Below are positions 21,818 through 64,000 of a DNA stretch of 64,000 nt, in pieces. Origin of the DNA: Luscinia megarhynchos (lineage: Eukaryota > Chordata > Aves > Passeriformes > Turdidae); the NCBI GenBank assembly GCA_034336665.1, contig JAPFBE010000002.1, positions 81,040,905 through 81,104,904 of the forward strand, in the 5' to 3' direction. The translations under genes and the position numbers were made by a program. Below the pieces are notes generated by a model that was given only the letters and a program-made list of their open reading frames with translations, was not told where the DNA came from and searched no databases. The first letter of the stretch is position 1. Each line of letters opens with the position of its first letter.

Positions 21818-22034
21818 TCAGTGCACCAGCTCAGGCTGGTTTTCTACAAAAGGGAGCACCCCACTAACATAATATGCTATTCCAAGGGACAGAAGAGCAA
21901 TGACAATGATGAGGAGCAGCACCCTCCAGAAGCCCAGGTCTTCCACAAACTCTTGCCACGTCGTGCGGAAACTGGAAAGAACTCCTTCACCTTGCTGTAG
22001 GTTTGGATTAAGAAGGGAATGGCTTTCCATTGCA
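21818..22034 (-). CDS. ANKRD46: ANKRD46 last coding exon (membrane segment)
   Basis: The acceptor is TTCTGTAG|TGCAATGG at 22034. It encodes residues 158-228, with the hydrophobic segment near the C-terminus, and ends at TGA 21820-21818. The open frame begins with an internal Met that is not the true start, because the exon joins in phase to the previous one. Confidence 0.95.
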
Positions 22035-25000
22035 CTACAGAAGATTAAAGTTAAAAATACATCAGAGAAAAAGAATGCACCTTTAAGTATGACAGTAATC
22101 CTACTAAGGGCATCTGAAACACTCCAGATTAAAAATTAAACTCCCTTACTGATTTATAGTATAGCATTGCTTCTGTTAAATCAAGACAAAATCAGATCAG
22201 GGAAAACACTCCTAATTATAAACTCATTTTAGCTGAAACTCATTTTATCAACCTGTGCAAAGATAATGATATTTGTGTATGTATAACTGCACTGAATTTT
22301 CAGGCTTGCTACCCAGAAGCCATCAAAGGTCAGTCCCCATAATTCCTACTAAATATGGCTTAGTAAAATACAATGAAGCATAAGTTAAGACCTCAAGAGG
22401 CACATATTATTTGTTAATAAAACAAATCATGACTAAAAATAAACTCTGATTAATGAAGTGGAAAGTTTAACCAATATTAGTTGAGATGCTGAATTCTGAA
22501 GTGACCTGTACTACTCTCCTGGATGTCTTTGTTACACGCCTCTTCTCTAGCACAAAAAAAATCACAGTAAACAATAACTTTGGATAAAAAGTTCAGAAAC
22601 TTTCTGAACAAGCTGGCATTTCTGTGTTTTCTGCCATATGGTGTTCAGTGACTGCTTTGATGTTTTAGGATTCTACTACCAATCCATCAGGCCCCCTTAA
22701 ACTGTCAGACTACAAATTAGGGAGTGGAATTCTCACTTTTAATGAAAAACAAATATAAAATCTGAGAGAGGCACTCTTCTTGACAACTGATCATCTTTAG
22801 AAAAAGATATAAGTTGTCTCAAAATCCAGCATGGCTTCTTGTGGAATTCTCCCAATTTTGCTGGTTTCACAATTGTAACAGGAAACTATCTGTTGCTTAT
22901 GAAAAACCCCATGAAGAATAGGAAAGCTTTTGCATAGCTTGACTGTTCACTTAAAATTTTGGCCATCTGCACAGTCTTACTACTTCTCACTTGAGTGAAA
23001 TTATGTACATGGGTGTTTACAGGATCAGGCCCTGACAACCACAGAAAGGAAATGGTGGAATCAACCACATACTTGATGTCAACAGCAGAATGTAAGCAAA
23101 AAAACCTATTTTTTTCCTCCCTTTTAAATGCTTTCTGTTACCATATTCCTATATATGTCTTACAGGACTAGTAATAAATTTTTTTAAATATCAAAGAAAA
23201 GCAATTTCCAAATCAAAACTAATTGTACAAATGTTGCTGTTCTTCATGACAGAAATAAATTGATGTTATCAGAAAAAAGTCTCATTCAGGAAGTTCTCTT
23301 CTAAGATTACACCATGGGAAACCTTCACACTATTCATATGGTATTTTTTCTCAGGAAGTACAACCACTGAAGAACAATTAGCCTAAACTCCCACAGCTTG
23401 CTCAAGTATTGCAGCATCATGTGCACAAGATTTCAGGAACTGCCTATTAAACAGCCTGTATTTTGGTTTTTTAAATATTTACCATGCTGTAAAGCTATTT
23501 TAGCTTACCCATAGCTGCAGGATTTAGTCATCTTCCTTGCTTATTATGATTTCCCAAGCAAAACAAAGGGTTTAGTAAAAGACAGCCCTTTGTGCAGAAC
23601 AGAATTTCTTACTCAGTAAGTTAGTAAGTAGTAACTAGTTAATACATAACCACAGAGAGGTTAAATAAAGGTGCAATGCAATTTAAGTGGAAAGGTCACA
23701 CGCTCACTCATTAAAAAGGGTACATAGAAAACATTTTTACTATTTTATATTACGACCCAATTAAAATCAATGTTATTCACGACTTTTTTTCTTATTACAA
23801 ATTACATCTGCATAAAAACTGGCAATGCAGCAACATGTCCTCAGAAGAGTTTGTGCCACACAGCCCAGACAAATGTGTGTCCAGCAGCAGCTGGGAGCTT
23901 ACATTTGGACAGGCTTGTGGCACAGCCCCAGGTCCAGCTGGGCTGTGCAGAAGGACAGATGTCTGTGTGAGGCAAGGACAGAGGGAGCTCTGCCTCCTGG
24001 CAGCAGGGCTGCTCCTCACACACAGCAGGGCAAAGCAAGCAAAACCAAACTTGACTTGGGAGCAGAGCCCTGGCCCCTGCCTCCTGAGCAGCAGCAGCTG
24101 TGTGTAACAAGGAGCAGAAAAATGAACTCGGAGACTGTTTTTAGAGAGAGTGCTATTTCTCCATAGGTTCATATGTAATGTAAAAGTTCAGAGGGCAGGG
24201 GACAGAAGACATTAATCTAAGTGTCTCTAAAATGTGAAAATAATACAAAGAGGGATAAGTGAAACTGTGGAGGTCTGAAAAGCCAATTGGTAAAGATATT
24301 ATTTCTTTACAAAGCAAACAGCACACAAGCTCATTTGCATTGGCTCCTGTAGGCATCTGCTATTTGTTACTTTAAAAATAATGTATTTCAGACATTTTAA
24401 ACACGTTCCCAAACAAGCTGGGTAATGCACTGCTTATGTCTCTGTGCCTGTCCCCAAGGAGAGTTGCAGACTTCCTGGCCAAAGCAAACAATATAACATT
24501 TATGAAGGTCAAATAACAGAAAGGGAGCTATGTTTGTTAAAGGGACACCATCAAATCAAAAATCAAAATTTAAATGGGGATGAGCTGTTCATCCACATGT
24601 TTAAACAAAATCAGCCTAAGTGCATTTCTGTGTGGCAAGAAACTTTCAATAAAAGATACTGAAGTCAGAAAGGTAATATGCATTAATTCTTACAATGTAT
24701 AACCACACAATTTTGAAAATAAAATTAATCTTCTGTTTCAGGGCTTACAACAGCCTCTCTGACAGGTGAGGTCACCCAAGGTACAAGAAAAAACTTCATG
24801 TCTGCTCACTGGGAGTACTAGATATTATTTCTGCAGTTTTGTTGGTTTCACCTTTTCTGTTTACTCTGCTTAGATCCAATTCCATCTATACAGCTTCTTT
24901 TCTGTTCACAGTGCAGCCTGTCTGTTTTTTCACATAAACCAAGCCACAGTTATATGACAAAACTGCCTGTCGTTTGTGATATAATGTTCCAGTAGTCATA

Positions 25001-27838
25001 GTTCATATGGTCATCATAAGACAATATAAAAAAAGCCACATCATTTTTGAATGGGGGTATCCACCATAATAAGATATACTAGAAAGCAGTCACCATTGCT
25101 TTATGCAACAGGATTGATAGTTTTCTTTGTGTAGTGAAAATACCTTGTTTTGTGCTTTGCAGGACTTTGCTGCATTTTTCAGAAAAGCAGTAACTCCTGG
25201 AACTGACTAATGCAGCAAGCCTGTTCTCCTTACATGCTTGTTTTCCACTGAGAAACTTTTATTTTATGGCATACAGCTTTCAGTAATTACAGCTGCATTT
25301 TGTGCTACAGAATCACAATTTATTACTACTGATTTCCTCTCCCTTGTAACCCCAGGTTTTTATCTGTGCCATCTCAATTTTCCTTAAGCTTGCCTGTATC
25401 TCACTTTTTGGTACCACTAACATGCTTCTTCTTCTCATGCTTTTGCTTTTATATTTAAGAAAATTCTAAGTAAGCACAGTCCCAGAAAGGGACTTTTAGG
25501 AATTTGTGAGTAACTTCCCTCTAACCTAGCACTTTCCCTGAAATGGTCAGCAGTTTTCTCAACATCTTCAGTTCTGCATTAACGTTCTCTTAAGCCACCA
25601 TAAAATTCTTATTCTCCATCTTTTCCAGGACTACTAACAATAGACATTTTAGGTACGACACCATATAAAATCCTTTATTCAAGTTCAGATGAATGAAAAG
25701 TCTGCTATCCCTTTTTTGCACAGAAAAATCATCAAAAGGATGTCAGGTTAGCCAATGATACTGGCATTTTGCATTTCACACTATTTCCTGCTTGGCTTTC
25801 TGGTAGGTGGTACAGTATTTATGTTTGGGACTCTGTAGTGGAAAATTAGAAATTATTTTTAAAAATTTCTACCATAAAATTAAAATCTCAATAGAAGTTT
25901 TCTTTTTGTTTTCTTCCATGGGATCTGTTTAAAGAGATTTTTCCAAAATCTAACACTCAATTTTGATTTTGTCTAATAATGCCAGGCCAAATTTGATATT
26001 ATCTCTTTTGAGGAATAAACAATCAAGTCAATCCCAAAAATCTAAAAGCCATGGACATTATTTCTCTTGGTAAGTATTTTTGTTTGGTAAATACCTTTCA
26101 CTTTCAGCCGTCTGCATTGTCTCCAGCTTTGAGTGAGCTCCTCTGTTAAATCCTTTCACCTCTTGCTCCTCTAAAGATTCCAGCAGCCTAATCACATCTT
26201 TATTCACACCCCTTCGTTTGGCAAGAACAAGTGGTGTTGCTCCTTGGTGGTTGCTAAAACAAGCCCATAAAAAGACACAAGAAAATTTTAACATAGAAAT
26301 TTTGTAACAAGTCAACTCAGCATAACATATTACAATTTCTTAAGTTCTCAGAACTATTTTCTGTTTTATCGGACTAATAAATTGCAATCTATCCAAGTTA
26401 CAGCGCAATTGGCTATAGAAGAAAATCAGTATATTTAGGTTTGAAATTGCACAACTCTTTTCCCCCTCTAATAAAATCAAAATTCCTAGGACTCTAATCT
26501 AACTGGAATCTCTGGGTGTTAGAGCAAAATAAAAAAAAACACAGTAGATTTATGGCAATGTTCAAGTTCAAGCTTAATTTCAAGAAAGAATTGTGCAATC
26601 TGGCTCCTAATAGTTTCTTTTCCATGAGGGTATTAGGACATGAGGCAGAAATGAAATAAAATACAGATGGTCCCTCTGCTGCTATTAAAATAATACTGAA
26701 TAGGTCCAGAGCTGCCTTTCGACCAGGAATTTCCACCAGGGCTGTTTGAAACGAGGGGAAAAAATCTCAACCCACAACCCATAAATAATCTGGTCTACCA
26801 ATAACTAGTTTTGCTGAGTTGAAAACATTAATGAGGGACAGGTGAAAAAGGGACAGACTTAAAAACTCAAAGGTTTTGATGTTACTCCTGGTTTTTGCAC
26901 ACGTCATGAATATGCAGAAAGTTCCACAAACAAAGTAATTCAGCACAGGAATGAAACAGCTAGTTATTTTGCAGCTTGAGAGCTTCCATCTGAGCACTGG
27001 CATCTGACAGCTGCTGGAAGCCAGAAGGAAAGAATATACAATATTCTGAGTCACAGACTTTGAGGGAGGGCAAAAACACTGAAAGGAAGCATTGTTACCA
27101 GAGGAGTACGGGAATGAACTGACACACACATATGCTGTATTTTCTTTGTCTTCTATAGTACAACAATAGAAAATAGGGTGGAGAAATTCTTTTAAAGTAG
27201 TCAATGTGATTTTTTCTTTGGTGCCAGCCACCCACACCTGGTTGTCTGGCCAAACCAGGGCAGCAATGCCATCAATGAAGCAGAATTAGACACAGCAGCT
27301 CACACCAGCAGCAGCTATTTTCACTTGCTTTGCTTGTTGCACAGACTAGCAGAAGTGGCCTCTTACTGTTTTCCTGCCTTTTTATTTTGTTTTTTTTAAT
27401 TAAGTGGTATCTTTGTAAAGTAGAAGTACACCAAATACAGCATTTCAGCAACAGCAGATTTATATACAAGACTCTGGTGACAGAAGATTAATGTATTATA
27501 AAATATGTACTGTATAAAGTGACTTACCAAATATCAATTTTAAGTCCATTAGAAACTAGGAACTGGATGGTATCGACATGCCCACACAGGTGAAGGGCTG
27601 TGTTACCCTGGTAATCAGTGGCTAGCAGGTCAGCACCAAATTTATGCAGGAGTTGGCAGATGTCTACATTTCCTCTGGCTGCAGCCAGGTGAAGGCCAGT
27701 TCGGCCCCGGCTGTCACGAATATTTGGGTCGAAACCACTCTCTAAGAGTCGTTTGGAATAGTTAAAATCTCCATCAATACAAGCCTGCAGCAGAGGCACA
27801 TTTGTCTGCGAGGAGTCGTTCACAAAAACGTAGGACAT
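21818..27838 (-). CDS. ANKRD46: ANKRD46, ankyrin repeat domain protein 46 (complete CDS, 3 exons)
   Basis: Joining minus-strand exons 27838-27528, 26253-26095 and 22034-21818 gives 687 nt, that is 228 codons plus TGA, the same length as human ANKRD46 as I recall it. The N-terminal two thirds carry about four ankyrin repeats (roughly residues 11-138), seen in TGLHLAAARGN, NTALHLC and GATPLVLAKRRG. A linker follows, then one C-terminal membrane segment at about residues 195-215 (VLLLIIVIALLSLGIAYYV) and a short tail ending in PELVH. It is a predicted tail-anchored membrane protein; its precise function is poorly known. The start is the ATG at 27838 (MSYVFVNDSS), about 31 nt into its exon. All junctions are GT-AG and in phase. 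The sequence looks nearly identical to mammals, so strong constraint is expected. SNX31 remains lie upstream on the same strand. Confidence 0.97.
22035..26094 (-). other. ANKRD46: ANKRD46 intron between coding exons 2 and 3
   Basis: 4.06 kb, GT-AG. It is mostly AT-rich, with no recognised transposon. It contains a GC-richer, multi-frame-open segment at about 23830-24115, listed separately. Confidence 0.85.
23830..24115. other. GC-richer intronic segment, unidentified
   Basis: About 285 bp inside the ANKRD46 intron is rich in CAG, CTG and CCC words and open in at least two frames on each strand. No protein motif or repeat family was recognised. It could be an old repeat copy or an intronic regulatory element; the sequence alone does not decide. 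Confidence 0.35.
26095..26253 (-). CDS. ANKRD46: ANKRD46 second coding exon
   Basis: The acceptor is GTTTTAG|CAACCACC and the donor is GAAAG|GTATTT. At 159 nt it completes Cys104 and runs to the split codon of Ser157. It encodes NHQGATPLVLAKRRG, the end of the ankyrin domain, and the charged linker ending TMQTAESE. Confidence 0.95.
26254..27527 (-). other. ANKRD46: ANKRD46 intron between coding exons 1 and 2
   Basis: 1.27 kb, GT-AG. A 156-codon minus-strand open frame (26767-27237) lies within it but has no recognisable feature and is treated as chance. No transposon was recognised. Confidence 0.85.
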
Positions 27839-40576: not shown

Positions 40577-40700
40577 CTGCGCGGGGCTCGCGGGGGGCGC
40601 GCGGGGCGGCCGGAGCGCGCGGCCGAGCGGCGGGCGGGAGCTGCCGCCCCCTGCTGGGCGGAGGCCGCGGGGCTCCGTGCTCCTCCGGCCCTCAGGGAGC
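40577..40700 (-). other. ANKRD46: Presumed non-coding first exon of ANKRD46
   Basis: On the minus strand the CpG island contains GCGCAG|GTAGGG, a good donor, whose exon would end at 40577. Joining to the acceptor at 27869 leaves a 5' UTR of this exon plus 31 nt before the ATG. The transcription start is not determinable here; 40700 is only a nominal upstream limit. Confidence 0.55.
40641..40657 (-). promoter_or_regulatory. CTCF-like motif in the promoter
   Basis: The minus strand reads CCAGCAGGGGGCGGCAG, matching the known CTCF core (CCASYAGRKGGC) at every position. It lies about 65 bp upstream of the predicted first-exon donor. Binding is inferred from the motif only. Confidence 0.65.
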
Positions 40701-40806
40701 CTTGGCCGGGCTCCGGGACGGGCAGAGCCGCGGGGCTCAGTGCCCCTCCGGCCCTCAGGGAGCCTTGGCCGGGCTCCGGGACGGGCAGAGCCGCGGGGCT
40801 CAGTGC
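40665..40806. repeat. 63-bp tandem duplication in the promoter
   Basis: CCGCGGGGCTC begins at 40665, 40728 and 40791, giving a 63-bp period and about 2.25 copies. The first two units are almost identical, differing mainly at CCGTGCT versus CAGTGCC. Because 63 is a multiple of three, several frames read through it as a 21-residue repeat, creating spurious long open frames on both strands. It adjoins the CTCF-like motif and a CR1 insertion. Confidence 0.95.
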
Positions 40807-40811
40807 GGCCA

Positions 40812-41402: not shown

Positions 41403-44400
41403 GACGCTGCTGTGTGTGCTATCCCTGTAAAACCACAACAATCAGCAAGCTACGAATTCAGGCCAAAGTACAATGCCTCTGTCTCCACCTCGCCTCAGCA
41501 CCAAGGTTCTCTAAGTGAATGGGAGCGGGAGTGAATGGCTGGAAAGGAGTTATTTAACTTCACCCAAAATACTACTGTAGCTTCTTTTTTTGGATGGATG
41601 ATACCTCAGCAGCTCAGTAAGCGAGCCAAAACAGTATGGTCTGCTTGGAAGGATCAGAGGAAATGCATGCCTTTCCCCAGACAATGCCTAGGTGGCAATA
41701 GCCTTCTCAACCATCGGACACTCACAAAAACATTACAAACCGATGTGTAAGCTTTCCTTGCTGATAGAGTAGCACCGGTAACCCTCACCTTTCTGCTCGA
41801 ACAGCGTCTGAGGAAAGGGAAAACAAAACAAAAAAGCAGAGTCTCAGCACTTATTCTCACTAGTAACTAGATCTGTAAAAACTCTAAAGAACGGGGGGAC
41901 AGACAAGGAATTACAGAGAAGATTTTTGGTTTGTTTTTTGTTTGATTGTTTTTTGGTTTTTTTGTTTTGTTGGTTTTTTGTTTTTGTTTTTGGGTTTTTT
42001 TGGTGGGGTTGGTTTTTTGTTATGTTTTGTTTGGTTGGTTGTTTTTTTTGCTTTATAATTCAAGACTTCAACAGTGGGTTTATTATTTCGTTTTGAAAGA
42101 CAGTATCTAAAATAAATTATTAAGGTCCTCTTCTCTTATTTTCTCAAATAAACAGTCATCTTTATTTGGCCTAACTAAAAGATCTTTTACTTGAGATACA
42201 ACCCAAATGAATTACATGCAGGGAAACAAAAGAAGGGCATCTCAATAATTATAGGTAGATACAACACGATAGAAAATCTCACATAATACAGTTCAGGTTG
42301 ATCTCTTCAGGATATTTCAGAGAGAACAGAATTTTTTTTTCCTGCTGGAATAGAACACAAGAACAATTGTTTCTGCTGTAAGGCTTATTACAATGTACTG
42401 TATGTGTGGATTGAACAGCAGTTCCAAAAGTGCCAATATCGATGTTACTTGGCATTCTAGTAACCACAAGGACATATATGCAGGTACTTTAACTGCCTAA
42501 TAGGCCTTCTGAATTAGATTGACTTCTGATAATCACACATTCTTTAACCATAACAACTGCATAAATGCTACCTTTCAACTCCACTTTTCCTAAAGGGTCC
42601 CAAGTACTGTGTGAAGCTTCTGAATACCATATCTGGCAGGTATAAACAGGTGAATTATACTATTCCATTGCCTGTATCTGCAGTTTTCTGTTGCATTAGG
42701 AAAATTTATGGCACTGATTTATCTTCTTGATATATCTTTGGAAAGTAAATGTCCTGAAAATCTAATAAGAGTGTCTATCATGAAGCTATGTTAACCATGC
42801 TGCAATAACTAATATCAAGGCATTAGGAAGCTGGAACCAGGTTTTGCATACGTTATTTCTGTAGAACTTATTTCATGCCTGTTTCAAGATTTCTAAAAGA
42901 CATAACAGCAGAATTGCCTAGGTGCAGGCACTTCTACATCACAGCCTCACTATCTGCAAAGTCCACCTATGCTTCTTCATTTTCCTACTAAACCTTACTG
43001 CTGCAGTAGACTGCACTCAGACAGGACTTTCCAGGCTGTTTTGCTAAGCTAGTAGTATCATGTACCCTACAGGATCAGAAACAAAATAGAAATGATGTAT
43101 CTCTTCTCATGATTTAGCAGTAAGTTTTCACAGTTTTTTGACAGCATCACTTAAACTTTTCTCCAACTCAGAGCAAAGATTTATATGACTCTTGGGGATG
43201 TTAATGCCAAAATTATAAAGATCCAACTCAATCAACACTTTTTCAAATGCGAATGTACAAAAGATAAACTTTTACTACATTTTTCAAGCATCTTGCAAAA
43301 AAAAAAAGATAAATAGCAGAGGAAATCCTTAAGAGCACTGTTATCACAGCATTTAGAAGCTAGCTAAGCATGGTTCAAGACTTGATATTAATTTTTTGAA
43401 AACAGAGCTTGGTGTGTGAAGATGTAAACCACTTCAAGTTTGCTGTAGAAAATAACAGATACCATTCCATATACCATATATCACTGTTTTAAGCAAGAGC
43501 ATACTGTGACTTGCTTTAACAGCTCTATTCTAATTAACAGCTTTAATTTTTTTAGCTCACTGAGTTTTGTGTCAGCAGCCAGACACAGCTGATAAGCTCA
43601 GTGATTTTCTGTTGCCCTGTCCAAGGCTGTTCTTCTCACAAAAAAATATTTTAAATATGTTCAGGTCAGACCAATGGCCTCAAGCCCAGAGTGCCATGGA
43701 ACTTAGTCCTTGCTAAAGCTTTGCCACAGCAAAGCCATTAAACCATATCCTTTGGTCTCCAGCATAGATGCAATTCTAGTCAGAAAATGTTGTCTCTGTT
43801 AATGTCAAGTGCAAGTTGTTTGTGAGTGTTGAAGGTCACACCTAACCTAGAATCTCACCTCCAGCAGTAACAAGTACAGAGCACTTCAAAGAAAGGGGCA
43901 AGAGAACTCACTACACAGTTTAATCAATTTGCTTATTGAAGAGCAGTTAGTGATTGGTTTTTATGGTTTCGGAAGGTACAGTAACATCACCTTTTTTCTG
44001 AATGCAGACTGAGTTTTTAGAAATATTTTTCTTTTAGAAATATTTTTCTTCAGCCAATCACACACTGTAATAGAGGTATTTATTTTAATTCACTTTATGT
44101 TCATTCAACAAATGACTTGAAAGAGCAACATCATTTAGCTGTTCAGGAACTATCAGCAATGGATACCAATTCCTGCAGATGAACTTGGAATTGCATTTTT
44201 TATGAGATGGGAATGTCCTGTGTATGGTATGTAGTGTGTCAGATTTTCCAGAGGGTATGATTCCCAACCAGAGGGAAAAAGAAATGCACAAACAATTCTA
44301 GTGTGGAATCTAAGTACAACTCTGTAAAATATATCAGCAGGTGCATGCAGATAAATACCTGATCTCCATATACATTCTGTCTCTCTGTAAATTTCAAATA

Positions 44401-45731
44401 TGTCATTCAGAAGCACTTGCAATTAGCAAATAAAATGAAGCAAGTTGTTGAACCATCAAGCTAAAATAATCTTTTTTCTTCAGACATGTTTTTTGCCTTC
44501 TTCATCCTCCAAAAAATTCAGGTTTTCCTCCTTTTCCTACCCAAAGAAGTTCTTACTAAATTTTTTAGAAGTTTACCTAGCCAGTAAACAGAGGTTGGGC
44601 TAAACAACACAAGCAAGAACACACTGTATTTACATTTTGGACACAATTTCTCACTCATTAACCTGTTTTTGTTGGTTGTTGGATTTCTTACTATTTTTCA
44701 TATATTCAGGCATCTTGATCTCCAGAACAGATTGACAACTGTAAATTGAGAATAAGCTGAAATGCTCTTCTAAGTACTGTAACAAAATATGCTGAGAAAA
44801 TCAGCATTCAGTTACTCCCAGCAGCAACAGTGTAAGAAATGAACTGGCAGAGTGGCCCTTCTCATAACTCTCTGTTTTAGTACAAGCTACTATCCACAGC
44901 TGATTAGTTACATAGTGAATGCTAACCTTCATAATTAAAAGTTTACTTCCATTAGAAATAAATTTAGAAATAAAGAGATCCAATCTTTTCCAAGATTAAA
45001 ATTTATCTTTTCTTCTGAATCAGTTACAGTTTAAAGCTATGAAATAACATGCTGTTCATTTCCTCACTGCTCATTCTAATCAGCATGGGCCTAGAAGATT
45101 ACACACGGTCCTTTCTTTTTTCCTCTTCAGACATTTTCAGTTGGCAGACAAAATCTTTAGATATCACAAGGTTAAATAAAGACATTAATAATGGTGGAAA
45201 TTATTTTTTAAAAATATCAAATATCTAAACATCCTTCCATCCTGAATGGCCTACATAAAAGAAGTATTTTAGCTACAAATCAGACTTTTAGTTTATTAAC
45301 ATTTCTATTTAAAATAAAAAAATTTCTATGTGTGAATGTCACAGATCTCAATTTGGTCTAGCATTGCAGCAGATGGAGCAAGCAAGTAAAGTGGGGAAAA
45401 ATTGAAAGCCAGAAATGGATATAACAGGGCAGTGCAGAACATACAAAAATTATACCATCTATATCCTTTATCAGAAAAAGTCAAAGCCAAGGAGAGAGAA
45501 TGTAAAGCATACTATTAAAGTTGTGATGATAAACCTTCTAACATTCAGAAAATTATTTCGGTAAAACTGACCAAAGATGTGCTTTATAGTGAATTAATTC
45601 TGGACTGAAATTTTGGAATGTGCAAGATACTTTTCCTCAATGGTACTGCTCTCAGCAAGGTTGTAAGAGTGATAGAGTAGCGGCCTTATCTCCTATTAAA
45701 TACAAATTCCTATACTAACACACACACTCAC
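41403..45731. other. Intergenic DNA between ANKRD46 promoter and SNX31 remains
   Basis: This interval should contain the last exon and 3' UTR of SNX31 if they survive, but I could not recognise them. It holds a T/G-rich low-complexity tract at 41923-42050 and otherwise AT-rich DNA. Confidence 0.5.
41923..42050. repeat. T/G-rich low-complexity tract, (GTTTT)n-like
   Basis: About 128 bp made almost entirely of G and T on the plus strand, with irregular GTTTT and GGTTTTTT units. The complement is a C/A-rich strand. Confidence 0.95.
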
Positions 45732-45806
45732 CATTTCTTGGCCTTTGGCTGCCTTCATTATCCGTCCTGGTACCATTTTATTCCAGCAGCTGCTGAACAC
45801 AAAGGT
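45732..45806 (-). pseudogene. SNX31: SNX31 remnant exon G (open)
   Basis: The acceptor is CTCTTTAG|ACC and the donor is AAATG|GTGAGT. 75 nt, in phase 0 at both ends, encoding TFVFSSCWNKMVPGR then IMKAAKGQEM. It matches the region after the conserved YTKQ motif near the SNX31 C-terminus. No lesion is visible in this exon. Confidence 0.85.
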
Positions 45807-46050
45807 CTAAAGAGGATAAACCAGAGAACTTTCTGATTTTTTCGAAATTACGCACTTGACTCTTCCATTCCTTCTCCAGGAGGAAATTACAGTCCCTAAC
45901 TACTGAACTATCATTTTCCTGACTCAGTTAATTTTACCCTGTTCTTAAGTAACAAACGAGTTGCAGTTCCTTATGGCCCAACCTCAGCATGACTAACCCT
46001 GTAAGATTACATTTTACCCTGATCCTTTCCTAAAAGGACTGAGAAATAAC

Positions 46051-46145
46051 CTGTTTTGTGTACAAAATTATCCAGTTTCATGTGCCTGAGTCATTGTACT
46101 CAAATCAGAGCTCCAGTGTGTCTTCTCTGGCTTCCTTTGTATACC
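46051..46145 (-). pseudogene. SNX31: SNX31 remnant exon F, two in-frame TGA stops
   Basis: The acceptor is TTTTTCCAG|GG and the donor is AAACAG|GTTATT. 95 nt, starting with two bases of a split codon. The reading is YTKEAREDTLEL, stop, FEYNDSGT, stop, NWIILYTKQ. The first TGA (46107-46105) stands where relatives have Arg or Ala between LEL and F. The second (46080-46078) stands where SNX31 has Trp. Both are single transitions from CGA and TGG. Flanking residues and splice sites remain recognisable. Confidence 0.9.
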
Positions 46146-46658
46146 CTGGAAAAACAAACAAATAGAAACATGAAACAAAAACCCTCTAGCCAATGAACGG
46201 GGGGCATAGCTAAAAACAGCATTAATGTGTTCAGCCTTAAATCAGAATCAGTCAATTAGGTTCATTTTATACAGTATATAAATAAAACAGCTGAAATCTC
46301 TACCAGAACACTTTCCTTGTGGGAGGGAGCAAGTGGGAGGTAGGAAGGGGGAGCCTTTGCAAGCATAAAGCTGGCTAAAGCAGTTATTTTGCTCCCACAC
46401 AAAACTCTGACAACTCTACCTCCAGAAGGAAAGGAAAGGAAAGGGGCAGGTAAAGCATGACATGGGATGCTAGGAAAGAACGGAAACAGAGTAAAGCAAG
46501 ATGTTTCACTGCTGTTAAGGCTGCCAAGGGAATATGTTTCAGAATAGGTTTGGAGGGGAATATGGGCAAGTGGAAGAGATTTAAAACACATCACCACCTT
46601 CTCCCCAGACGTTCCAACCTTATTTTTCATGGAGAGGAAGTGAATGTAAATACAAAGT

Positions 46659-47428
46659 TGTCGAGTTATTCATGGGTCTGGGTCTTCAAAAGAGACAAGA
46701 GCGGTTGTTGGTTGCTGTAAAGTTGTTTATTACAGAAGTACATCAGTCTCGAACGCAAGGAGTTCAGAATATTAAAGTCCATGCTAAGATTTTTTAGCAT
46801 AGACTCCCAAGCAGAAGAATCAGCATCAGCTTCCTGGCATTTTCTCTTTGTCCTCTGGGTGGTGATGATGGTGATGATGGTGGTAGTAATGGTGTTCTCT
46901 CACCCCAATACAGGGGGTTTTATTGATAAATCTTCCAATGAGCTAAAAACACAAACCTAAAACATTGCTTCTACACTGAATAGAATCTTAATTTTAGAGT
47001 ATGAAAGTAATATCTTAATTTACACATAGTAGCTCTATCTATTCACGTAAATGGTTCTATCTGTTCTAACTAGAAAATGTAAGCAATGTTCTTACTAAGT
47101 TTTCATTATGTCTGGGGCTAAGTTTCTGAACTTTTAACTGGGCTTTAGGTTGCTTGAACTTTAGTTAGGTTTTAGGGCTTTTTACTCTCTTGAGGCACTT
47201 ACAGTATATTCTTACTTTAAACTAAAACTTAAACTTCTACTTCATATCTATGTGACTTAATAATATTTCTACTAACTTAAAACTAAAACTTACTACTCCT
47301 GGACTCCTGCTTCATATCTGTGTGGCTTAATATATTTTAATTTCTCTACAGGCTTTAATTCAATCCCTGCATTCTTCTCTCTCTCTCCGAGGGACTCAGA
47401 GAGGCTTCTATTTACACACTCCAACTCA
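46659..47428 (-). mobile_element. Solo LTR of an endogenous retrovirus
   Basis: A 770-bp element begins TGTCGAG and ends AACTCA on the plus strand (TG...CA on both strands). It is flanked by AAGT at 46655-46658 and again at 47429-47432, a 4-bp target duplication typical of gamma-type (ERV1-like) integration. On the minus strand an AATAAA (46731-46726) lies about 70 bp before the 3' end, followed by a U5-like stretch, which sets the orientation. No internal viral genes are present, as expected after LTR-LTR recombination. It sits in an SNX31 intron, its target duplication starting 16 bp past a decayed exon's donor. An imperfect duplication of 'cttcatatctatgtgactta' (about 47230-47335) and a GATGATGGT tract (46860-46890) lie inside. 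Confidence 0.75.
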
Positions 47429-47447
47429 AAGTCAGCAAAGTACTTAC

Positions 47448-47643
47448 AAGAAAAGTAACCTGTCAAATTCTTAACCTGTTGATTTTAAAGCTGACCTCTA
47501 ATTTGGTTAGTAGGCAGCATCATGCAGCAGCTAATCTCATCATTGCCAACATGGATGTCAGCTGAGTAGCTTTCTTCTAGATAGTCACAAATAAAAGGAT
47601 CAAACATCAAGCTGTATGTGCCATAGAACTGTAGTTCTCAAAT
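47448..47643 (-). pseudogene. SNX31: SNX31 remnant exon E, frameshifts and Trp-to-stop
   Basis: The acceptor is CAATGCAG|ATTTGAG and the donor is TTTCTT|GTAAGT. The middle reads DPFICDYLEESYSADI then HVGNDEISCCMMLP, unmistakable SNX31. This frame soon hits TAA, while the +1 frame continues the homology as FKINRLRI, stop, QVTFL. A 1-nt (or -2) frameshift is therefore present, and the conserved Trp before QVTF is TGA (47465-47463). The start of the exon also needs small indels to match the expected HYGY-QLDP block. 196 nt compared with about 205 expected. Confidence 0.88.
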
Positions 47644-47674
47644 CTGCATTGAGAAATGCACCAAAAACACAGAA

Positions 47675-47730
47675 CTAATACTCTTTCCTCCAGAAAGTAT
47701 TCCTAATACTCTTTCTTCCAGAAGGACACG
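47675..47730. repeat. 28-bp imperfect tandem duplication
   Basis: CTAATACTCTTTCCTCCAGA begins at 47675 and recurs at 47703 with C/T changes. It lies a few tens of bases upstream (minus strand) of the decayed SNX31 exon E. Confidence 0.85.
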
Positions 47731-48239
47731 GATTCACACAATAGGCCTGTGTTTGATTCAGAGAAGAGTGCTCATAGTCCAGAGTAAGAAACTTGATTTT
47801 TAATTTTTTTTTAACAGGATATGGTGAGATGGGTCTTTTGGATGATTAGCATATATGATAATAGTAAGAGATAAAACTAATGTAAGAAATACTGTGAACA
47901 ACAACCCAGCAGTCTGAATTTTTATCTGGTTGCCTAAACTGAATGACAAACGTTTGCACCTGAGTTTTGCAGAGAAGAATAGCATTCAATCAAATACTTC
48001 TTGCCATCTCTTGAGATCCAGCTCATTCTGTTGGGATTTTTAAAAAATATTAGCAAGATGGGAATCTCCTTTTCTATTTGGTGGTTCAGTATCTGACCAG
48101 GAGATGGGAGACCTGGGTCTCTAGTTCAAATGACTCCACAAAACCATGCTCTTTTTGCAGTCACAGCCTCTAGTACCATTTCTTTAAAAAACCTACTTCT
48201 TTGATATGTTTTGATTGGTTTTTTAAAATACTGTTTTAC

Positions 48240-48331
48240 CTTTGCTTTGTTTACATTTTTTGTAGAAACTGAAGTTCCTGCATCTGCTCATCTGTTGGTT
48301 TAACCCAATTCCTCTTAACTTCCTGGACTGC
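48240..48331 (-). pseudogene. SNX31: SNX31 remnant exon D, lost acceptor and stop
   Basis: Encodes AVQEVKRNWVKPTDEQMQ then ELQFLQKM and TAA. It matches the SNX31/SNX17 stretch AxQDIEKGWxxxTxxQ. The previous exon ends in phase 0 (ATGCAG|), so this one must begin with GCA at 48331, but the two bases before it are AA instead of AG. The nearest AG (48332-48331) would shift the frame. The TAA at the end replaces an expected Gln if the downstream donor CAAAG|GTAAAA is the original one. An alternative donor (AAAT|GTAAAC) would remove the stop but change the phase. Confidence 0.8.
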
Positions 48332-48405
48332 TTTAAAAGAATTTTTAAAAATAGCAGAAAAAGTCAGCAAAAACGTATTTCCTTTCACGTAAACATTCAG
48401 AAATG

Positions 48406-48431
48406 CATAGAAATAGAAATAGAAATAGAAG
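48406..48431. repeat. (GAAATA)n short tandem repeat
   Basis: About four units of AGAAAT in a row, with simple slippage structure. Confidence 0.9.
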
Positions 48432-48912
48432 GCTTGCAGTTTATTTTGGTTTTTAAACAAAGCCTTTTATTTTAGGACAAGTTCATTCTACACTGTTCTT
48501 TCCTCATGAATTAATAGCTTCCAAAGCTGTGTGTAGGTATACAACTCAACAAACCTACAGTTCACCTACATGCTCTCATATGATTGCAGTGTGCCTACAT
48601 ATCAGGAACAATAGGATACATATATCACCAGAAAATACAGTGGGTAGATACTGAAATATGTCCTTTTTGAGTAATATTTTTGCCATGCATAAGCCATAGG
48701 TGAGTTAGAATCTCTAATACAAAGGTTTGAAGGAGAAAAAACCCCAAAACACCAACATGCCCCCTATTAACAACAGCTATATCCAGCACTTAGAAAAGAG
48801 ACAGAAATCCGTGCCAACAATAACCATTTATAAATATGTCAAGAATTTGTATAAAAGATTAAATTAATCTGGGAAAGGTAATATTTAAGATTACAAAGCC
48901 CTTTCTTTTTAC

Positions 48913-48983
48913 CTGCATATGTAGCAAGTTCAGTGAAATTCTACAATCCATCAGGAGTGTATTGGGAGAAGGATCCATACAAC
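48913..48983 (-). pseudogene. SNX31: SNX31 remnant exon C, out-of-frame junction
   Basis: The body reads CMDPSPNTLLMDCR then ISLNLLHMQ, ending ATGCAG|GTAAAA. It matches the LMDCR...DLLYMQ part of SNX31. The only nearby acceptor, GGGAAG|GTTGTATGG, leaves two bases before TGT, whereas the preceding exon ends with two bases of a codon (AAGTA|). The join is therefore one base out and reads TAG at a conserved Trp position, then runs into further stops. A 1-base insertion plus Trp-to-stop is the simplest reading. Confidence 0.82.
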
Positions 48984-49562
48984 CTTCCCAACCAAAGGAT
49001 AAGTAAAATAAGTAATAAAACATGAAGAAATTCTTCTGTTGAACAGTTGTTTGAATTTTTCAGCGGAATAAAATGGAAGTGCAATCCAGAAAGATTTCAT
49101 TACTTACCAGATTAAAAAACACCAAACCAAACAACAGACATGCTCTTGAATTGTGTCCAGTACTCATTCTTTACACATTGTAGCAGAATGGAAATAAACT
49201 GGGGTCAGGTTATCCAATCTCTCCACTGATTGTAGTGGTACCGAACATGTAAGTTACAATATAGAACTAACACCTTTTCCTCCTTTTCTCAAACAGCTCC
49301 GGGTTTCTTTACACGGTAGTTGGTAAGGCTCCTAGAGCAGCCACTGCCATGCTCCAGTGCCGGCATACAGGACCTAGCCTGAAGCCAGAGAGGTGCAGCA
49401 CCAAGCGCTGTGGAGCTGAGGCAGGCTGAGCTCAATGCAGCAAAGCAAATTGACCTCTCAGTTATCCACGTGCCAGGGCACAGCTGGCCTGAGCCCTTTG
49501 ATTTAAAGCAACCTGGGTAAATCTCCACAACCATACGACTGGAGCAGCACAGGCTCCACGGC

Positions 49563-49588
49563 CATTCATTCATTCATTCATTCATTCC
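49563..49588. repeat. (CATT)n microsatellite
   Basis: About six perfect CATT units in an SNX31 intron. They also produce a chance Met-rich start for a minus-strand open frame. Confidence 0.95.
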
Positions 49589-50818
49589 ACGGGCATTTCA
49601 TTCTGCACTTTCACGGGCATTTCCTGCTCTTGCAGCACAGACAGCCCCATTTCCTATCCTGGGCTTGGAGCAGTGCTGGATGGAGAAGGATCTGCTCAGT
49701 TTGCCATAGCTGAGAACCATGCAGTTCTTTCACTGAACTGCTAGTTCTGCAGTTCATAAGGCACATATAGAGAAACAGAGAAAGATTTGTAGAGGTTGAG
49801 CTCTAACACAGTAGATTTAAACCAGACAAGTTACCAGCATCAAACAACAGTTTCTGTGTCCCTTTCCTTGCTGCCACCAAAAGACATGGTCTGTTCTTCC
49901 TCTTCCACTCCATCCATTCTTCTGCTGCAATCAATACAACTCACTAAGCAAGCAAACATAGATTTCTTTTTTTTTTTTTTTCCGTTATAGGGAGAAGTAG
50001 ACCTGAACACAACTGCAGCAGGGAGTCATTAGACTGGCCCTGCTCTGCTGCCTAACTGCCCCCTCGGGGCACTCTGACAAATGGAACCTTGGCACCAGGC
50101 TCCCCATCCCCAGGGTTCATCCTCACCCACAAGTCAGCATTACCATTTGCTGCACAACAAACAGAGCCAGGGGACTGACTCAGGCCACAAACAGGCCGTC
50201 AAAACCAAACCAAAAGTAAAGAACCAGTATTTTTAGACCAAGTTAGCTCCCCAGTCCAGTTCACCACTGTTTGCCCACACAATCCCACCAGCATAACAGA
50301 GAAGTAGCCCAAGGAACACGCAATGAAAGGGGAAGAGTACTCTGCTGTTCAAGCCAGGCCACTTACTAAAAGAAATGCTCAAGCTATGGCCTCAGGTATT
50401 ATGCATATTAGTGTATAGAAAAGAGTACTTCAGATAAAAAGTAATCCACCTCTGCCCAGAGGGGCAGCTTGCAACTCAGAACTCAAAGTTCTCTTCTGTA
50501 TTGTTTATGGGTGTATTGCATTGTGCAAGTATAAATATCAGGAGGCAAGGAGCCACAAAACACCTCTCTATAGATTCTGAGAGAGGGAATAAATAGCTAG
50601 CTACAATAAAGGATCCTTCAGGAATACTACAGTGCTAAAATTTAAACATGCAACACCACAGAAAACACTCAATTAGAAATTGGCCTCAGAAAAAGAGAAA
50701 AACAACAGTCAAGCTGCTGAAGCTTGAAGGCTTCATAACTAAGTTATTCGAGGCATTTCTTCCTCTGCTTATATAGTTGTCACGCATCTTAGTAGTTTCA
50801 CTTAAGCTTCTTGCTCAC

Positions 50819-50906
50819 TACTTTCTGATCCCAAGCTTACAGTACAACTCCTTCATGCTCTGAAGTCTCACATAAGGAAGTTCAAGTTCTGCCGCTTTTT
50901 CCACCA
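50819..50906 (-). pseudogene. SNX31: SNX31 remnant exon B (open)
   Basis: The acceptor is TTTTCCCAG|TGGTGG and the donor is AAAGTA|GTGAGC. 88 nt, open, encoding VVEKAAELELPYVRLQ then SMKELYCKLGIRK. It matches the SNX31 stretch around ELPYV and GLRKW. It ends after the second base of a codon, which matters for the broken join to the next exon. Confidence 0.88.
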
Positions 50907-51302
50907 CTGGGAAAAGAAAAAAAACCGCAGAGACATTTGGTGAAGTCTAGTGAAATAGCTCAACTACTTTAATGTATCAGTTATTGCTGGCTAGCACTGT
51001 GCTTTTAGAGAAGGAAAAGAATTCTGGGGTAAAGTAAGGTGACAAGCTACTTATCTTCCTCACTTCTCTGAGTCTTATCTTGCAGAAAAGTCTGGGCTCT
51101 ACTACTTACAGAATATATCTGCTCTCTGAGACTTTGGACTTATAGGATAGTCTTCACTTGAAATACAGCTAAGCATGATATATGTTACAGGACACATGGA
51201 TGGAAACTTCCAGGGCTGGTGCTTTCTGAAACAGATCACCAGACAAGGTGTATAAAATGTCAAAGTACAGCATGAAAAGCATGTTACTTTTCAGAGATCA
51301 CT

Positions 51303-51344
51303 AAAAAAATGTAAGTCTAAAAAAAAAAAAATGTAAGTCTAAAG
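51303..51344. repeat. Short tandem duplication (AAATGTAAGTCTAAA)
   Basis: Two copies of ATGTAAGTCTAAA joined by A-rich sequence, intronic. Confidence 0.9.
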
Positions 51345-54300
51345 GCCTAAATCTGTAAATATTTAATTCCAAACCAATAGCATGATTCAGCAGAACACTT
51401 AAACATACCTTTCTAAGCCTGTGAGCATCTAAACATTTTTTGGCAGTGGAATGTGGGTTACATTTGGACTTGATATATTTGTGAGGATTATCAAGGATAC
51501 ATAGAAATGTAATCAACTGAAAAACTTTTCTATTCTCCTGTGTATCTGATCATATCACAATACTAGGCAACAATCATTCCATCTGGAACTGCACTGGAAG
51601 ATACATTTGAGATGTAGTAACTGCCAACTGTGTACTCAGAGATATCTTTCATAGCAGAATGAAGAGGGCAAGAGAATAATAAATAAAATAGACACAAGCT
51701 GTAAAGGTCCTACGTTACTAAGTAAGCCTGAGCTCCTTAATAAATTCAGTAGTAATTGGTCCTTCATTTTAAAACACTCAGAAGAGCACTTACATGTCTA
51801 TGACAATGAAAAGACTGAAAAAAGCTAAATAACTGCAATACCTAATATAACTCCAGTCAACAGCAGAGACTGTTCATTGTCCTGAGCCTATCCCAGTCAC
51901 AGGTCTGGATCCTGCCTCATCCATTTACACACCCACATGGGAAACAGGACATCAGCAGACCAATGAAGATGCAGAAGCCTCTCCACATTTTATGATCATA
52001 AAGGCACTCACAATCCTGATTTACAGCTTACTTAATAACACTGTGATCAAACTTCAGTTACTGGCAGTTAAGAAAATAAACATGTAATGATATAAAGGAA
52101 AGTAGAGACGTTTATAAGGATAAGAGAGCTTCCTGTCCTATTGTTAAACTCAGCATGTGATCTGTAAATTAAGAACTGTTTCATGTAGATATGGCCATCC
52201 CATTAAATGCCTGCCTAGAATACACACTCAATAGCTCCCATGTGGTAAAGTTGCTAAGTGACCTGTAAACTCAAAGGGATGATATTCATACATGAAAGTC
52301 TTACCCCTACATCACCCTGTCTCTTGCCATACTTTGTTCCCCACTAGCAGACTTTCCAAGAAGTAAGGGGAGAGAGCTTGAGGGAATTTATCAGACCAGA
52401 TGGGTCTTTTAACCTTAGCAGGATCATGCAAGCCTTGTTCAGATTTCAGAGTCAGTCACTGCAGCCAACAGCAACAACAACAAAAATCCAAGGGAGGGCT
52501 AAGTTAAGTGCCATGTAAAACCATCAGAGAGAACTTCATCAATACAATTTTGAAAGAAAAATAGGCTAAAATATTTTATGAATTCTCTCAACAGACCCAC
52601 CTCACACAATATAACCTTCAAAAACAAAGGTCAGAAGCTTCACTATACATTAGCATGGTTAAGGAAGAAGTGTTCATTAACTGTTTTTAAGTTTTCCCTT
52701 ATGTCCCATTGAATTGCTCATTTAAAAGTAAATATAACCACTCCCATATTCCAGCATTTTCCAGTGAATTTGTGATGAGTTTCCAAAGTTTTAAAGCAAT
52801 GTGAACATGTAATAAAATATAGAATGTTTACTACTCTCATGCATTTATTTTCTAACACAAGGCATTTAACATGTTATTCCAGATCTTTACTACTAAATCC
52901 TCAGTCCTGTTGTACAGTGAGCACTGTGTGCTCTGAGTTAACATTACTCTTGAGCATCACAAATACATATTTTTACAGGATTTGTGTGTTTTCCAGGCTG
53001 ATAGAGTTCTCTTGTTTTTCTAGGAAATATCTAAATGTCCTACCCCTTCAGTGAAAACACCAGTCTTGTAGGACTCTCTGTGAAGGTTTCTGACAAGAGC
53101 AGACTTGAGCTCTGTTGAACTTTCATTATCAATAGTGCATAAGGAGGAAAAACCCTATCTAGCTTGACATTTGGGCTGCTTTTAGTTTTGCTGTGGCCTC
53201 TCTACATCTTCTCTGAAAGAGGGCAAAAGTAGCACCAACAGAAAATACAGACAATATTTGCAGGACCAGCTGCACAGTGGGATGGTGGGGACAGAAAAGT
53301 CAGGCAGAGGTGAGCCCACTAACTACTGAATCTGATTGAGATAGTTGTCTTATTCTGGTTTAGGTTCTGGAAAACTTAAGCATAAGTTTAAACAGCCATA
53401 ACCTAAAAGAATGTGGTACCATTGAAGCACTCCTAAATTCCAGAGAGACCATAATCTCCTGAGTTTGCTCAGAAAAAGTGGTGTGGCAATTATAAGAAAT
53501 CACTTCAGTCCTAAGAATACAACTGTAATAGCTGCTCTGGCAGAATGTGCAGCCTCATGCTTTGGTCAGAGAGAATCGACTTTCTTTGTCTGAAGTGTGG
53601 AAGGTGGAAGTGTCAGGTTTCTCTTTTTCTAAAGCATGCCAATCCCAAAACACTTCAAACTGTGTCACAGAGACAGCATTGTAAAGTCATCTTCACAGTT
53701 CAGAGGGGTTTTCTCCAGCTGTATCAATGGGTTCAAAAAGCAGACGTAGGAATGGCAAACACAGATCTCAGATTTAGTAGGATTTTGTCTGATTTTATTT
53801 CTTGGATCAAAGCACAAGCTGGTATATGCTGCCTGAGCACCAGAATATTAGGGAGTGAGGATTGTAAAATCTACCACCATCACAAAGTAAATGTAGTAGC
53901 AATTTACAGTAATAAAAGAAAAATAATTCCCAAAAGTCCTATTTTATCTTTAAGACCACAAAAGAAGAAATGGTGTCTGCAGTGTTTTAACAAGGGACAT
54001 TGCTTCTTTACAGTGTCACATAAACGTTAAACATATATAAAAGTAACATACAAAGCAATATGCAACACCACTGTCTGGCTTGGAAATTACCATAACCCAT
54101 TGCAAACTGACAAATTTATCAAGCACAAATTACTTATGGTTTTTAAAGTATATTAGAAAATCCTTTCCTTTCTCAAGGCCCTTTGGACAAGTATCTTGTC
54201 CAAGAATGTCCTCTTACTTCTTCCACCCTATTAGCACCTATTCCTCTCTCCCCAAATCAGAATTCCTATCTCCCTGCCACCCCCAACGCTTTTTGCCTTC

Positions 54301-55450
54301 GGCATCTCCCACCTCACGAGTCTCCTGTTGCAGGGTCTCAGACAAACTCTGACACTTAAGTTCCCCTGGAAGAACTGGTCCCAGCATTGCCTCAGGTGCT
54401 GCAAACCCTATGGCAGGACAAAGACAGCAACGGGAAACCTTGTGTTACCCAGTTTATGGTTCCTATGCACAGACTGTAAATTCTGAGGCTGGACTAACAC
54501 ACATCAGCTCAACAGAGTACAGCAAACACATGTTCAGCTCCCTTATACCCGTGGCCAGTTGAGAAGCTCCTTCACAAACTCAGATTGCAAAGGCACAGCA
54601 GAAACACGGTGCACACTATTCTGTATGATGAGAGGAGATTTCAGAATCTCATGACAAAGAGCAGCACCCATCAGACAGATGTATGCTTTGTTATTGCTGT
54701 TAGGATTAGGAAATGAGGGCAACCGAAGAAGCCTTGCTTGTGCATACGTAAATGTGCAAATGCACAAATAGGCAGAGCCACTGCTGCTCCTCCTCTCCTG
54801 GCACAAGAAGAGAACTTCAGCTGAAAGTTTCAAACACCAAACAGCCAGTTGTGTAAACAATATTTGGTTGCTACTGGTTACAAATTGTAACTAGCAATTG
54901 TTTACTGTGTGTATTGCAACAGCTGCTGCAGATATCCCAGAGCCAGTGCTATAACAGCACCAGCACTGCAAACACACAGTTCCAGAGAAAGCACCAAAGG
55001 AAAACAAAACAAATAAGGAGAAGCATGCAGAAAAAAGAGATGCATCAGTTGTGCACTCAGTTTTAACAGCAGCTGCCAGCCAAGACACAGGTGAAGACGT
55101 GATCATTTCTGACTCCAGTGTTCGAGAACTTTCTCCCACACTATGCCAAACCAAAGGCAGCTTAATTCTGATTGTGAAGGAAACCTGCACTTGACAGCTA
55201 AATGCCATAGAAGCAGAAGTCATGTAACATTAAGAAGTTAATGGTGGACAATTCTAAGGACCCAAATTCTCATCTGCAAAAACAGCCATGCCCCCCAGCC
55301 CTCTGGTGCAATAAACTCCTCAAAGCCCAGAGAAAATACTCTTACATGTCTTCATATAAAGAGGTTTATCCTTTCCAAATTGAAATTATATTAATTTTTG
55401 TCCACTTCTCACAAAAGGAAACTTTCAACAGAATTCCAAAAAGCCATTAC

Positions 55451-55546
55451 CTGTAATATTCTTTCTGTAGTGTCTGATGACTGGATATAAAGTCTACCAT
55501 TGCTGCCATCCACAAAGGCTCTCTGGGTTTGGATCTTAAACATATC
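55451..55546 (-). pseudogene. SNX31: SNX31 remnant exon A (open)
   Basis: The acceptor is CTGACAG|GATATG and the donor is TTACAG|GTAATG. 96 nt, 32 codons, open in phase 0, encoding DMFKIQTQRAFVDGSNGR then LYIQSSDTTERILQ. It matches the start of the FERM-like F1 lobe of SNX31, including the SDTAERVL motif. Compared with remembered mammalian SNX31 it lacks about five residues after the AYLD-like motif, an in-frame loss. This is the most 5' exon I could recognise. Confidence 0.85.
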
Positions 55547-61772: not shown

Positions 61773-64000
61773 ATGTTTTAATGATTTTTTTATTCACTAG
61801 TTATCCTTCTTGCAATATGAGATGAGCAAGTTTGGAATAATGCTTGATTTTAACACTAAGTATTCACTGTTTTCCCTCCTGAGAGACAGGTAGGATGCTA
61901 AGTGCTGCCTACACATCTTCAACAATGGGGAAGAAAAGAACAGCACAGAGGTGTTTTAAGAATGAACTTCACTCTGTGTCTTTCGATGCTGTTGGAGAAA
62001 TTTTGTTACTCTGCCATAAAACATCTCTCAAGTCACAGTATGCTAATAAATACTAGAACATGCACAGCTTTGCTGGGTGAGATTCTTTAATAGCCAAAAT
62101 GAATATTTATTCAACTGTCAATTGCACCAATAAAAGGCACTGTGCACAGGTAATGACAACTAATGCACTCTTGTCTTTCACAGAGTTATTTGATCTCTAT
62201 TTGGAGATTGTTCTTTACCATAATGAAAGAACACACAAAGCACTACTGCTGTTGTATTATGAATCAGCATATATTAGCACAACCATTTTAAGTTTTAATT
62301 GTAAGCAAATAAAGCTGTAGAACTACTGTCTTTGAAAACCAGGACACCTAAACATAGCTTATAAAAATCCATTGTATTGTGGAACAGAAATTTGGGTTCA
62401 TTTTAAGTCTTGGGAACGTACTGACCTTGCACTGACATTTAAAGAATAATTCTGTGCCTATCTTGACCTCTACAAAATAATTGACTGCTTTTGATCAATA
62501 TAAACCTAAACAGGTGTACATAACTATTTCTGCTGGTGCACTAAGAGAAATCCACAATGCTGTCATGTCAAAAGACATCTTTAAACCCTGGAAATTGATA
62601 TTTTGAAGAATTATTTCCTGACAGAACTTCGTAGAAGAAAAGTCAATTGGCAGTGTTTGACAACATATTGCAAGCATTCCTGACGGATTTAACTTTCTTT
62701 AGCAGCCCTGTTAGTCTCATCAAGACTAATTAAGGCTCAGCAGTAATTACTGGGAGTCATCTGCAGGGCTATAGCAGGCATTGGATCAGAACTAAATAGA
62801 TTGCTTCTCACAACAGAAATCAGAAGTAATTCACTGTCTTTAGCATTCCAGTAGGTCTGAATTTAAGAGACTGTAATTAAACAGTATCTTTTTATTTACA
62901 AAGTATGCAGGAAAACCTTTCTAGAATTTGTTAGGAATACTTATTTATACCATTTTCTATAGCCCTCCTGAACTCCCCTTACATACCTTAGTCACACATA
63001 GCCAGTGAAGAGCTCTTGAGACACAAACCTCTTATTTGGTCTTTCAAAACACTTCAAGCGTGAGCTGTTCACTTCAAGCAAGGTTACCACAGAACACAAA
63101 GCACTTCCCAGCAAGCCAAACCACAGCATCCCCTCCCTAAAAATTCTGTGGAGTCATACTGCACCCACCTACTCCAAAACACCACCATTCTCATAGAACC
63201 ACAGCAATGTGAAAGGAGGAATGGAAAAGGGACGTATACAAGCACAAGTTATCAAGGCTCCAAGCCTGCCAAAGAAAGATCACACATGCCATGGACCACA
63301 TTTAAATGGATTTGAAAAGTCATCTAGGCTACCACAACCCAAATATAAGCCAGATTCTGCCCATTGCTACAACTGCAAGATAAGAGAACACATTTTCCCA
63401 GCAGTCATCAATACACTCATCAGTGCAAACCACTGACACTATCAAAAAGCATTTACAATTGCAAAATGCAAGAATGTGTGTAATCCTTCTATTGAGTTCT
63501 CACAAAGACTTCCCTGTGAACTGTTTAGAGGCAAAAGATTCATCAGATATGCTACAGAATATAAAAACAAAGCATGCAGTTCTTTCTATGTGAGAAACAA
63601 GTTTGTACATGGAGAAAAAAACAATAGCAATATTATTATTATTGCCACCCAGGCTTCACAGAGAGCACTCTGTCGTTGGAACTCACTGCTTTAGAAGGCA
63701 GAGAACACAATGCTAAGAACACAAGGAAATGAAGATAGCAAGGAAGTCTTGAACCTGGGAGGTAGGATAATATTTCAACTCTTTCATATAACAAACTATT
63801 TGGCTGAAATATTCAAAACTTACCTGCTGTAGCTTTCAAAAAGAATTATGAAGACATCACTATTTGTAGTATTTGAATCCAAAGTAACTGAAAAACAAGT
63901 AGAAAATGGGAAGGGAGGAAACCAAATGTAGCCAGAAGATGAAAAATATGGCCAGTGTTTCAAAACATAACAGTTGATTAGTCAGTGTTACTTTACTCAT

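Follow-up and report, generated by a model that had tools for sequence, protein, structure and literature searches.

The 64,000-nucleotide stretch of Luscinia megarhynchos DNA analysed here (contig JAPFBE010000002.1, positions 81,040,905 to 81,104,904; referred to below as the window) is best explained as containing SNX31 at its original locus, as a unitary pseudogene, in a bird that clusters with songbirds. The minus strand carries 11 remnants of its exons between 63887 and 42122, nine of which have a frame or splice lesion (one of them ambiguous), and, judging from its sequence, the gene would give rise to no working protein; we assign to this reading a probability of about 0.93. The loss of function is well supported, and for its cause we infer relaxed selection, perhaps with the paralogue SNX17 as backup.

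Identity of the locus and its lesions

The locus was identified by protein searches and domain analysis. The SNX31 protein of the stork Ciconia maguari (P0123; 435 residues), used as tblastn query against the window, produced 12 pieces at E<=0.01, all of them colinear and on the minus strand, while 50 shuffled versions of the same protein produced none. At 47637-47497, SNX31 reached 63.5 bits versus 33.5 bits for SNX17 (best exon), and the SNX17 query gave only two pieces in the whole window at E<=1. Pfam analysis of the SNX31 read-through revealed, above cut-off, the three FERM lobes of the SNX17/27/31 type, namely F1 (PF21273, 4e-17), F2 (PF21271, 1.5e-08) and C (PF18116, SNX17_FERM_C, 4.5e-21). 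The PX domain, of which the window contains just the last exon (63887-63824), had no Pfam match in this read-through, and an Rfam scan of the window at gathering thresholds returned no match. The tblastn pieces as compared with the shuffles, the lower score of SNX17 and the FERM lobes together identify the locus as SNX31.

An earlier note on this DNA had described seven exon-like SNX31 segments in conserved order, strand and synteny, and had proposed a protein-to-genome alignment. A frameshift-tolerant alignment of the stork protein to the DNA retained the order, the strand and the adjacency to ANKRD46, and raised the count to 11 remnants covering stork residues 86-435, eight of them inside 45732..55546 and three (exons 4, 13 and 14) outside it. 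The remnants were numbered 4 to 14 on what we take to be the human count of 14 coding exons. Their boundaries were placed by means of surviving splice sites and protein homology rather than the DNA of an intact bird gene, and over exons 4-14 the window preserved 246 of 326 residues of the stork protein. Since the introns are kept, with the 11 remnants spread over 21.8 kb next to a clean ANKRD46, the locus is the original one and not a retrocopy, as the same note had maintained.

Frame-breaking lesions were found in five of the 11 remnants. Exon 4 (63824..63887, as all the remnants on the minus strand), which begins at stork residue 86 and encodes the end of the PX domain, is frameshifted by a deletion of 1 nt between intact splice sites. 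Exon 9 (48240..48331; FERM F2) combines an acceptor changed from AG to AA with a 1-nt deletion in an A-run that creates an immediate stop, and exon 10 (47448..47655; FERM F3) presents a lost acceptor, two TGA stops and a 2-nt deletion. Two more TGA stops occupy Arg and Trp positions in exon 11 (46051..46145; FERM F3). Exon 14 (42122..42215) carries a 1-nt insertion and a probably lost acceptor; it still encodes the C-terminal EEDL motif at 42133-42122, which runs on into NNLF because the natural stop is gone, so that any product of this exon would be devoid of the terminal leucine required for Retriever.

Four other remnants have boundary lesions only. These are exon 6 (52525..52615; FERM F1), with AT in place of the donor GT at the expected boundary; exon 7 (50821..50906; FERM F1), with a donor lost or a phase broken; exon 8 (48913..48983; FERM F2), whose 5' boundary is one base short of the expected phase, an ambiguous lesion; and exon 13 (44663..44722), which is open and has its acceptor changed from AG to TG. 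The remaining two, exon 5 (55451..55546; FERM F1), with an in-frame deletion of 15 nt, and exon 12 (45732..45806), with an in-frame deletion of 3 nt, are otherwise open and keep their splice sites. The lesions thus sum to four frameshifts, four TGA stops that are all substitutions, five to six lost splice sites, the 15-nt deletion and the lost natural stop, with frame or splice lesions in each of the three FERM lobes. The four disabled segments of the earlier note have therefore become five with a broken frame plus four with boundary lesions.

Relatives, lost constraint and the neighbouring gene

Several of these lesions were also implied by the SNX31 protein models of other songbirds. The three models that reach the C-terminus (Passerculus, P0121; Ammospiza, P0141; Geothlypis, P0180) all run past the same lost stop into NNLF, all are flagged LOW QUALITY by NCBI, and all skip residues around lesions. 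The 2-nt deletion of exon 10 was implied by the Ammospiza and Geothlypis models, whose residues correspond to the shifted-frame translation of the window, and the Passerculus model, one residue short at this point, is compatible with it; the deletion was not seen in the protein models of Ptilorrhoa, Neopipo and Piprites. Similarly, the loss of the exon 13 acceptor was implied by the Passerculus and Ammospiza models, and the Geothlypis model is compatible with the A-run deletion of exon 9.

The loss of constraint was assessed on an alignment of 42 database SNX31 proteins (from 120 listed) and the window read-through onto the stork protein, from which gaps, X and segments with low local identity were removed before counting. 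Sites were taken as invariant when unchanged in the other unflagged non-passerine sauropsids (29 birds, the alligator and two turtles), in a leave-one-out manner, and 106 of 113 such sites were readable in the window. As many as 21 of these 106 sites were changed (19.8%), a proportion above that of every one of the 120 listed proteins. The 29 unflagged non-passerine birds had 0-5 changes each, with a maximum of 5/118 (window versus maximum, p=0.0003), and the alligator had 7/112. Changes in the six passerine entries ranged from 8/85 to 16/91, and high values were also observed in two parrots, Ara (P0206; 12/97) and Melopsittacus (P0232; 9/90), and in the hummingbird Phaethornis (P0185; 16/113), whose three models are moreover gapped in a manner suggestive of corrected frameshifts or skipped exons. 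The kagu, flagged LOW QUALITY, had 5/113.

Considering the 79 avian entries among the matches listed, at least 9% of the invariant sites were changed in 6/6 passerine, 2/2 parrot and 1/1 hummingbird entries, and at most 4.4% in the other 70; many of these are isoforms or repeat entries for a single species, and 29 of them contributed to the definition of the sites. About 6-13% was reached in lizards and snakes, 13-18% in mammals and 18.2% in a caecilian, high values explained by their far greater distance. In SNX17, used as a control, 14 of 14 passerine entries had changed at 0-2 of 272-295 sites, and therefore passerine proteins are not generally fast. The view of the earlier note that SNX31 is disabled was thus borne out by the many lesions, by the presence of some of them in the models of other songbirds and by the lost constraint.

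A protein tree of exons 4-14 (JTT+G4, ultrafast bootstrap) grouped the window, as sister, with the trio Passerculus, Ammospiza and Geothlypis (100), then joined by Ptilorrhoa (100), and, together with two suboscines, within passerines (95), so that the DNA most likely comes from an oscine that does not belong to the sparrows and warblers sampled. The root-to-tip length was 0.363 for the window, 0.256-0.366 for the other passerines and 0.073-0.215 for unflagged non-passerine birds. Since L156F and Y225H, at otherwise invariant sites, are common to 5/5 oscine sequences, decay was probably under way before Ptilorrhoa branched off. Eight derived residues absent from the intact set were common to at least one oscine and at least one suboscine, and only two of them lie at invariant sites: Y225H, which Piprites shares with the five oscines, and C286Y, which it shares with the window. 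Decay on a single passerine stem branch is not shown by these two residues, and Ptilorrhoa, Neopipo and Piprites lack the 2-nt deletion; the sequences would be compatible both with one early lapse in passerines and with separate decays.

The flanking gene ANKRD46 lies on the same strand and served as a control. Its three coding exons (27530..27838, 26097..26252 and 21821..22036, minus strand) are intact and have good matching splice sites, and its order relative to SNX31 presumably matches that of human chromosome 8. Stops or frameshifts numbered 0 in 681 coding bases of ANKRD46 versus 8 in 1020 of SNX31 (Fisher p=0.025). A GC-rich island (40250-41000; 77-79% GC) lies in the interval from ANKRD46 to the end of SNX31 and is probably the promoter island of ANKRD46; it contains a 63-bp minisatellite (40656-40806), and a 55-bp tandem pair follows just past it (41107-41217). 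The Passerculus SNX31 model (P0121, 608 residues) extends into the counterpart of this island (window match 40846-40325, tblastn E 3.7e-29), an extension that the loss of the stop codon probably produced as an artefact of annotation.

Alternative readings and probable cause

Several points weigh against the pseudogene reading. Exons 5, 12 and 13 have open frames, in the first two cases with good splice sites as well, the splice lesions depend on deduced boundaries, with exon 8 ambiguous, and the Fisher test of lesions gave only a modest result. Residues 1-85 (exons 1-3) would fall past base 64000 if present, and it is for these residues only that the earlier note was right in stating that several expected exons could not be found. 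The sharing of lesions was read from the protein models of relatives and not from their DNA, and for Passerculus the in-frame loss of one codon could also account for what the model shows at the 2-nt deletion of exon 10. In addition, constraint was judged by invariant sites on proteins rather than by dN/dS, the evidence on copy number covers this window, and the loss of the product was deduced from DNA rather than RNA.

It is extremely improbable that the gene works and owes its lesions to faulty assembly or sequencing. Two 1-nt frameshifts (exons 4 and 9) do fall within or next to runs of T or A, where long reads typically err; however, models of three other songbird species pass the same lost stop, and the 2-nt deletion is implied by two of these, which makes such an error unlikely and counters the objection on this ground that the earlier note had foreseen. 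Moreover, all four stops arose by substitution, ANKRD46 is free of lesions in this same window, and errors cannot account for the lost amino-acid constraint. A decayed duplicate, with a working SNX31 elsewhere in the genome, would fit with the fact that the evidence is confined to the window, and yet the copy adjoins ANKRD46 on the same strand, and the matches listed in two protein searches contain no unflagged full-length passerine SNX31, although those of a further search contain 14 passerine SNX17 entries, which renders this option highly improbable. A shortened or re-spliced SNX31 that still functions, for example as a partial FERM encoded by open exons, is suggested by open exons 5, 12 and 13 and by the existence of NCBI coding models in the three relatives, and is nonetheless very unlikely: the three FERM lobes are hit, those models are of low quality and skip lesions, and constraint is lost.

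The earlier note had tentatively related the loss of SNX31 to the lack of a urinary bladder, a trait that is general to birds and arose far earlier than the decay of this gene. This cause appears unlikely, since storks, owls, falcons, ducks, the hoatzin and ratites, bladderless as well, possess unflagged, full-length and constrained SNX31; the absence of a bladder is thus not a sufficient cause. Retinal avascularity was similarly rejected as a driver, being general to birds whereas SNX31 loss is not. In favor of the bladder stands the mouse protein, which is highly urothelium-specific, binds uroplakins and was linked to uroplakin-bearing multivesicular bodies (PMC4051706). Against it, birds keep at least one uroplakin, as UPK3c is reported in reptiles, birds and mammals (PMC3922775). 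A literature search on uroplakin gene loss in birds found nothing to the point among the papers listed. In addition, SNX31 is a binding partner of beta1-integrin with a role in retinal vessels (PMC10322688), and therefore the urothelium is not its sole known setting.

For the songbird locus as a unitary pseudogene, the following course of events may be proposed. In the passerine lineage, SNX31 would have escaped purifying selection, an effect already present on the oscine stem and probably due to the ability of SNX17 to cover the shared cargo (beta1-integrin and other NPxY-type tails). SNX17 would meanwhile have stayed fully constrained in passerines, as its present sequences suggest, and mutations would then have built up neutrally in SNX31. 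Such a backup is consistent with the finding that SNX17 rises in mutant mice, for which the authors suggested mutual compensation (PMC10322688). Both proteins bind Retriever via a terminal leucine (PMC11772769). If the proposal holds, the supposed backup by SNX17 becomes testable.

Distribution across birds and known parallels

The distribution of SNX31 was examined in two protein searches, from which the best 120 of 143 and the best 120 of 225 matches were listed. Passerine SNX31 appeared as six entries in the first and five of these again in the second, P0121 (608 residues) having fallen outside the length range of the latter. All six were flagged LOW QUALITY or partial and none had a precomputed PX domain, so that no unflagged full-length passerine SNX31 was present among the matches listed in either search (120 of 143; 120 of 225), although the 14 passerine SNX17 entries came among the 120 matches listed in another search. 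Unflagged full-length SNX31 was annotated, at the level of protein models, in Ciconia, Bubo, Falco, Anas, Cygnus, Opisthocomus, Rhea, Struthio, the condor and others. No SNX31 of pheasant-type fowl was found among the matches listed, though Penelope and Alectura were present and the Phasianus SNX17 (P0098) was listed; these missing entries point to a possible separate loss, as a lead rather than a test.

It is conceivable, and we propose it tentatively, that SNX31 was lost repeatedly, at least in passerines, parrots and hummingbirds, the lineages to which the vocal learners belong, with pheasant-type fowl as a possible further case. Natural knockouts of this gene, a frameshift of which is associated with retinal vessel disease in people, would in that case make up more than half of the living bird species. 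Vocal learning as the cause was considered and set aside, as it is a pattern only: suboscines are mostly vocal non-learners, and hummingbirds are represented by one entry. Passerines comprise 6,063 of 10,135 bird species (PMC7759463), and therefore a passerine-wide loss of SNX31 would cover most birds. If true, the normal life of songbirds does not require a conserved endosomal adaptor that is tied in mice and people to beta1-integrin and retinal vessels and in the mouse urothelium to uroplakin turnover, and the songbird SNX31 proteins flagged LOW QUALITY in databases were modelled on a dead gene.

At the level of titles and abstract openings, no report of a loss of SNX31 from birds was found, and supplementary tables of bird-genome papers may list it; the main text of a songbird-genomics paper (PMC4377847) mentions neither SNX nor PABPC1 nor ANKRD46.

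When compared with known systems, the locus is the same gene as the SNX31 of other birds (Ciconia, Falco, Bubo, Anas) by similarity, FERM lobes and tree position, whereas the latter is full-length and constrained and that of the window has five exons with a broken frame and four more with boundary lesions. The 2-nt deletion of songbirds falls at what we take to be about residue 308-309 of the human protein. In human SNX31, a frameshift at residue 321, in FERM F3, was reported in familial exudative vitreoretinopathy (PMC10322688); it is a disease variant, in contrast to the songbird state, which is apparently normal for the lineage and comprises many more lesions. SNX17 resembles SNX31 as a PX-FERM endosomal cargo adaptor that ends in a Retriever-binding leucine (PMC11772769), and unlike the SNX31 of the window it is fully constrained in passerines and matches the locus weakly. 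Cornulin (CRNN) is likewise a conserved gene that is disrupted or absent in songbirds, with the difference that its loss is also found in eagles and cormorants (PMC7759463). Cry4 offers a parallel of recurrent loss in overlapping lineages (hummingbirds, parrots and suboscines), and yet it is described as retained and specialised in songbirds, the birds in which SNX31 is broken (PMC10846946). Given the CRNN and Cry4 parallels, the kind of event is already known, and what appears to be new is the gene and the apparent recurrence of its loss.

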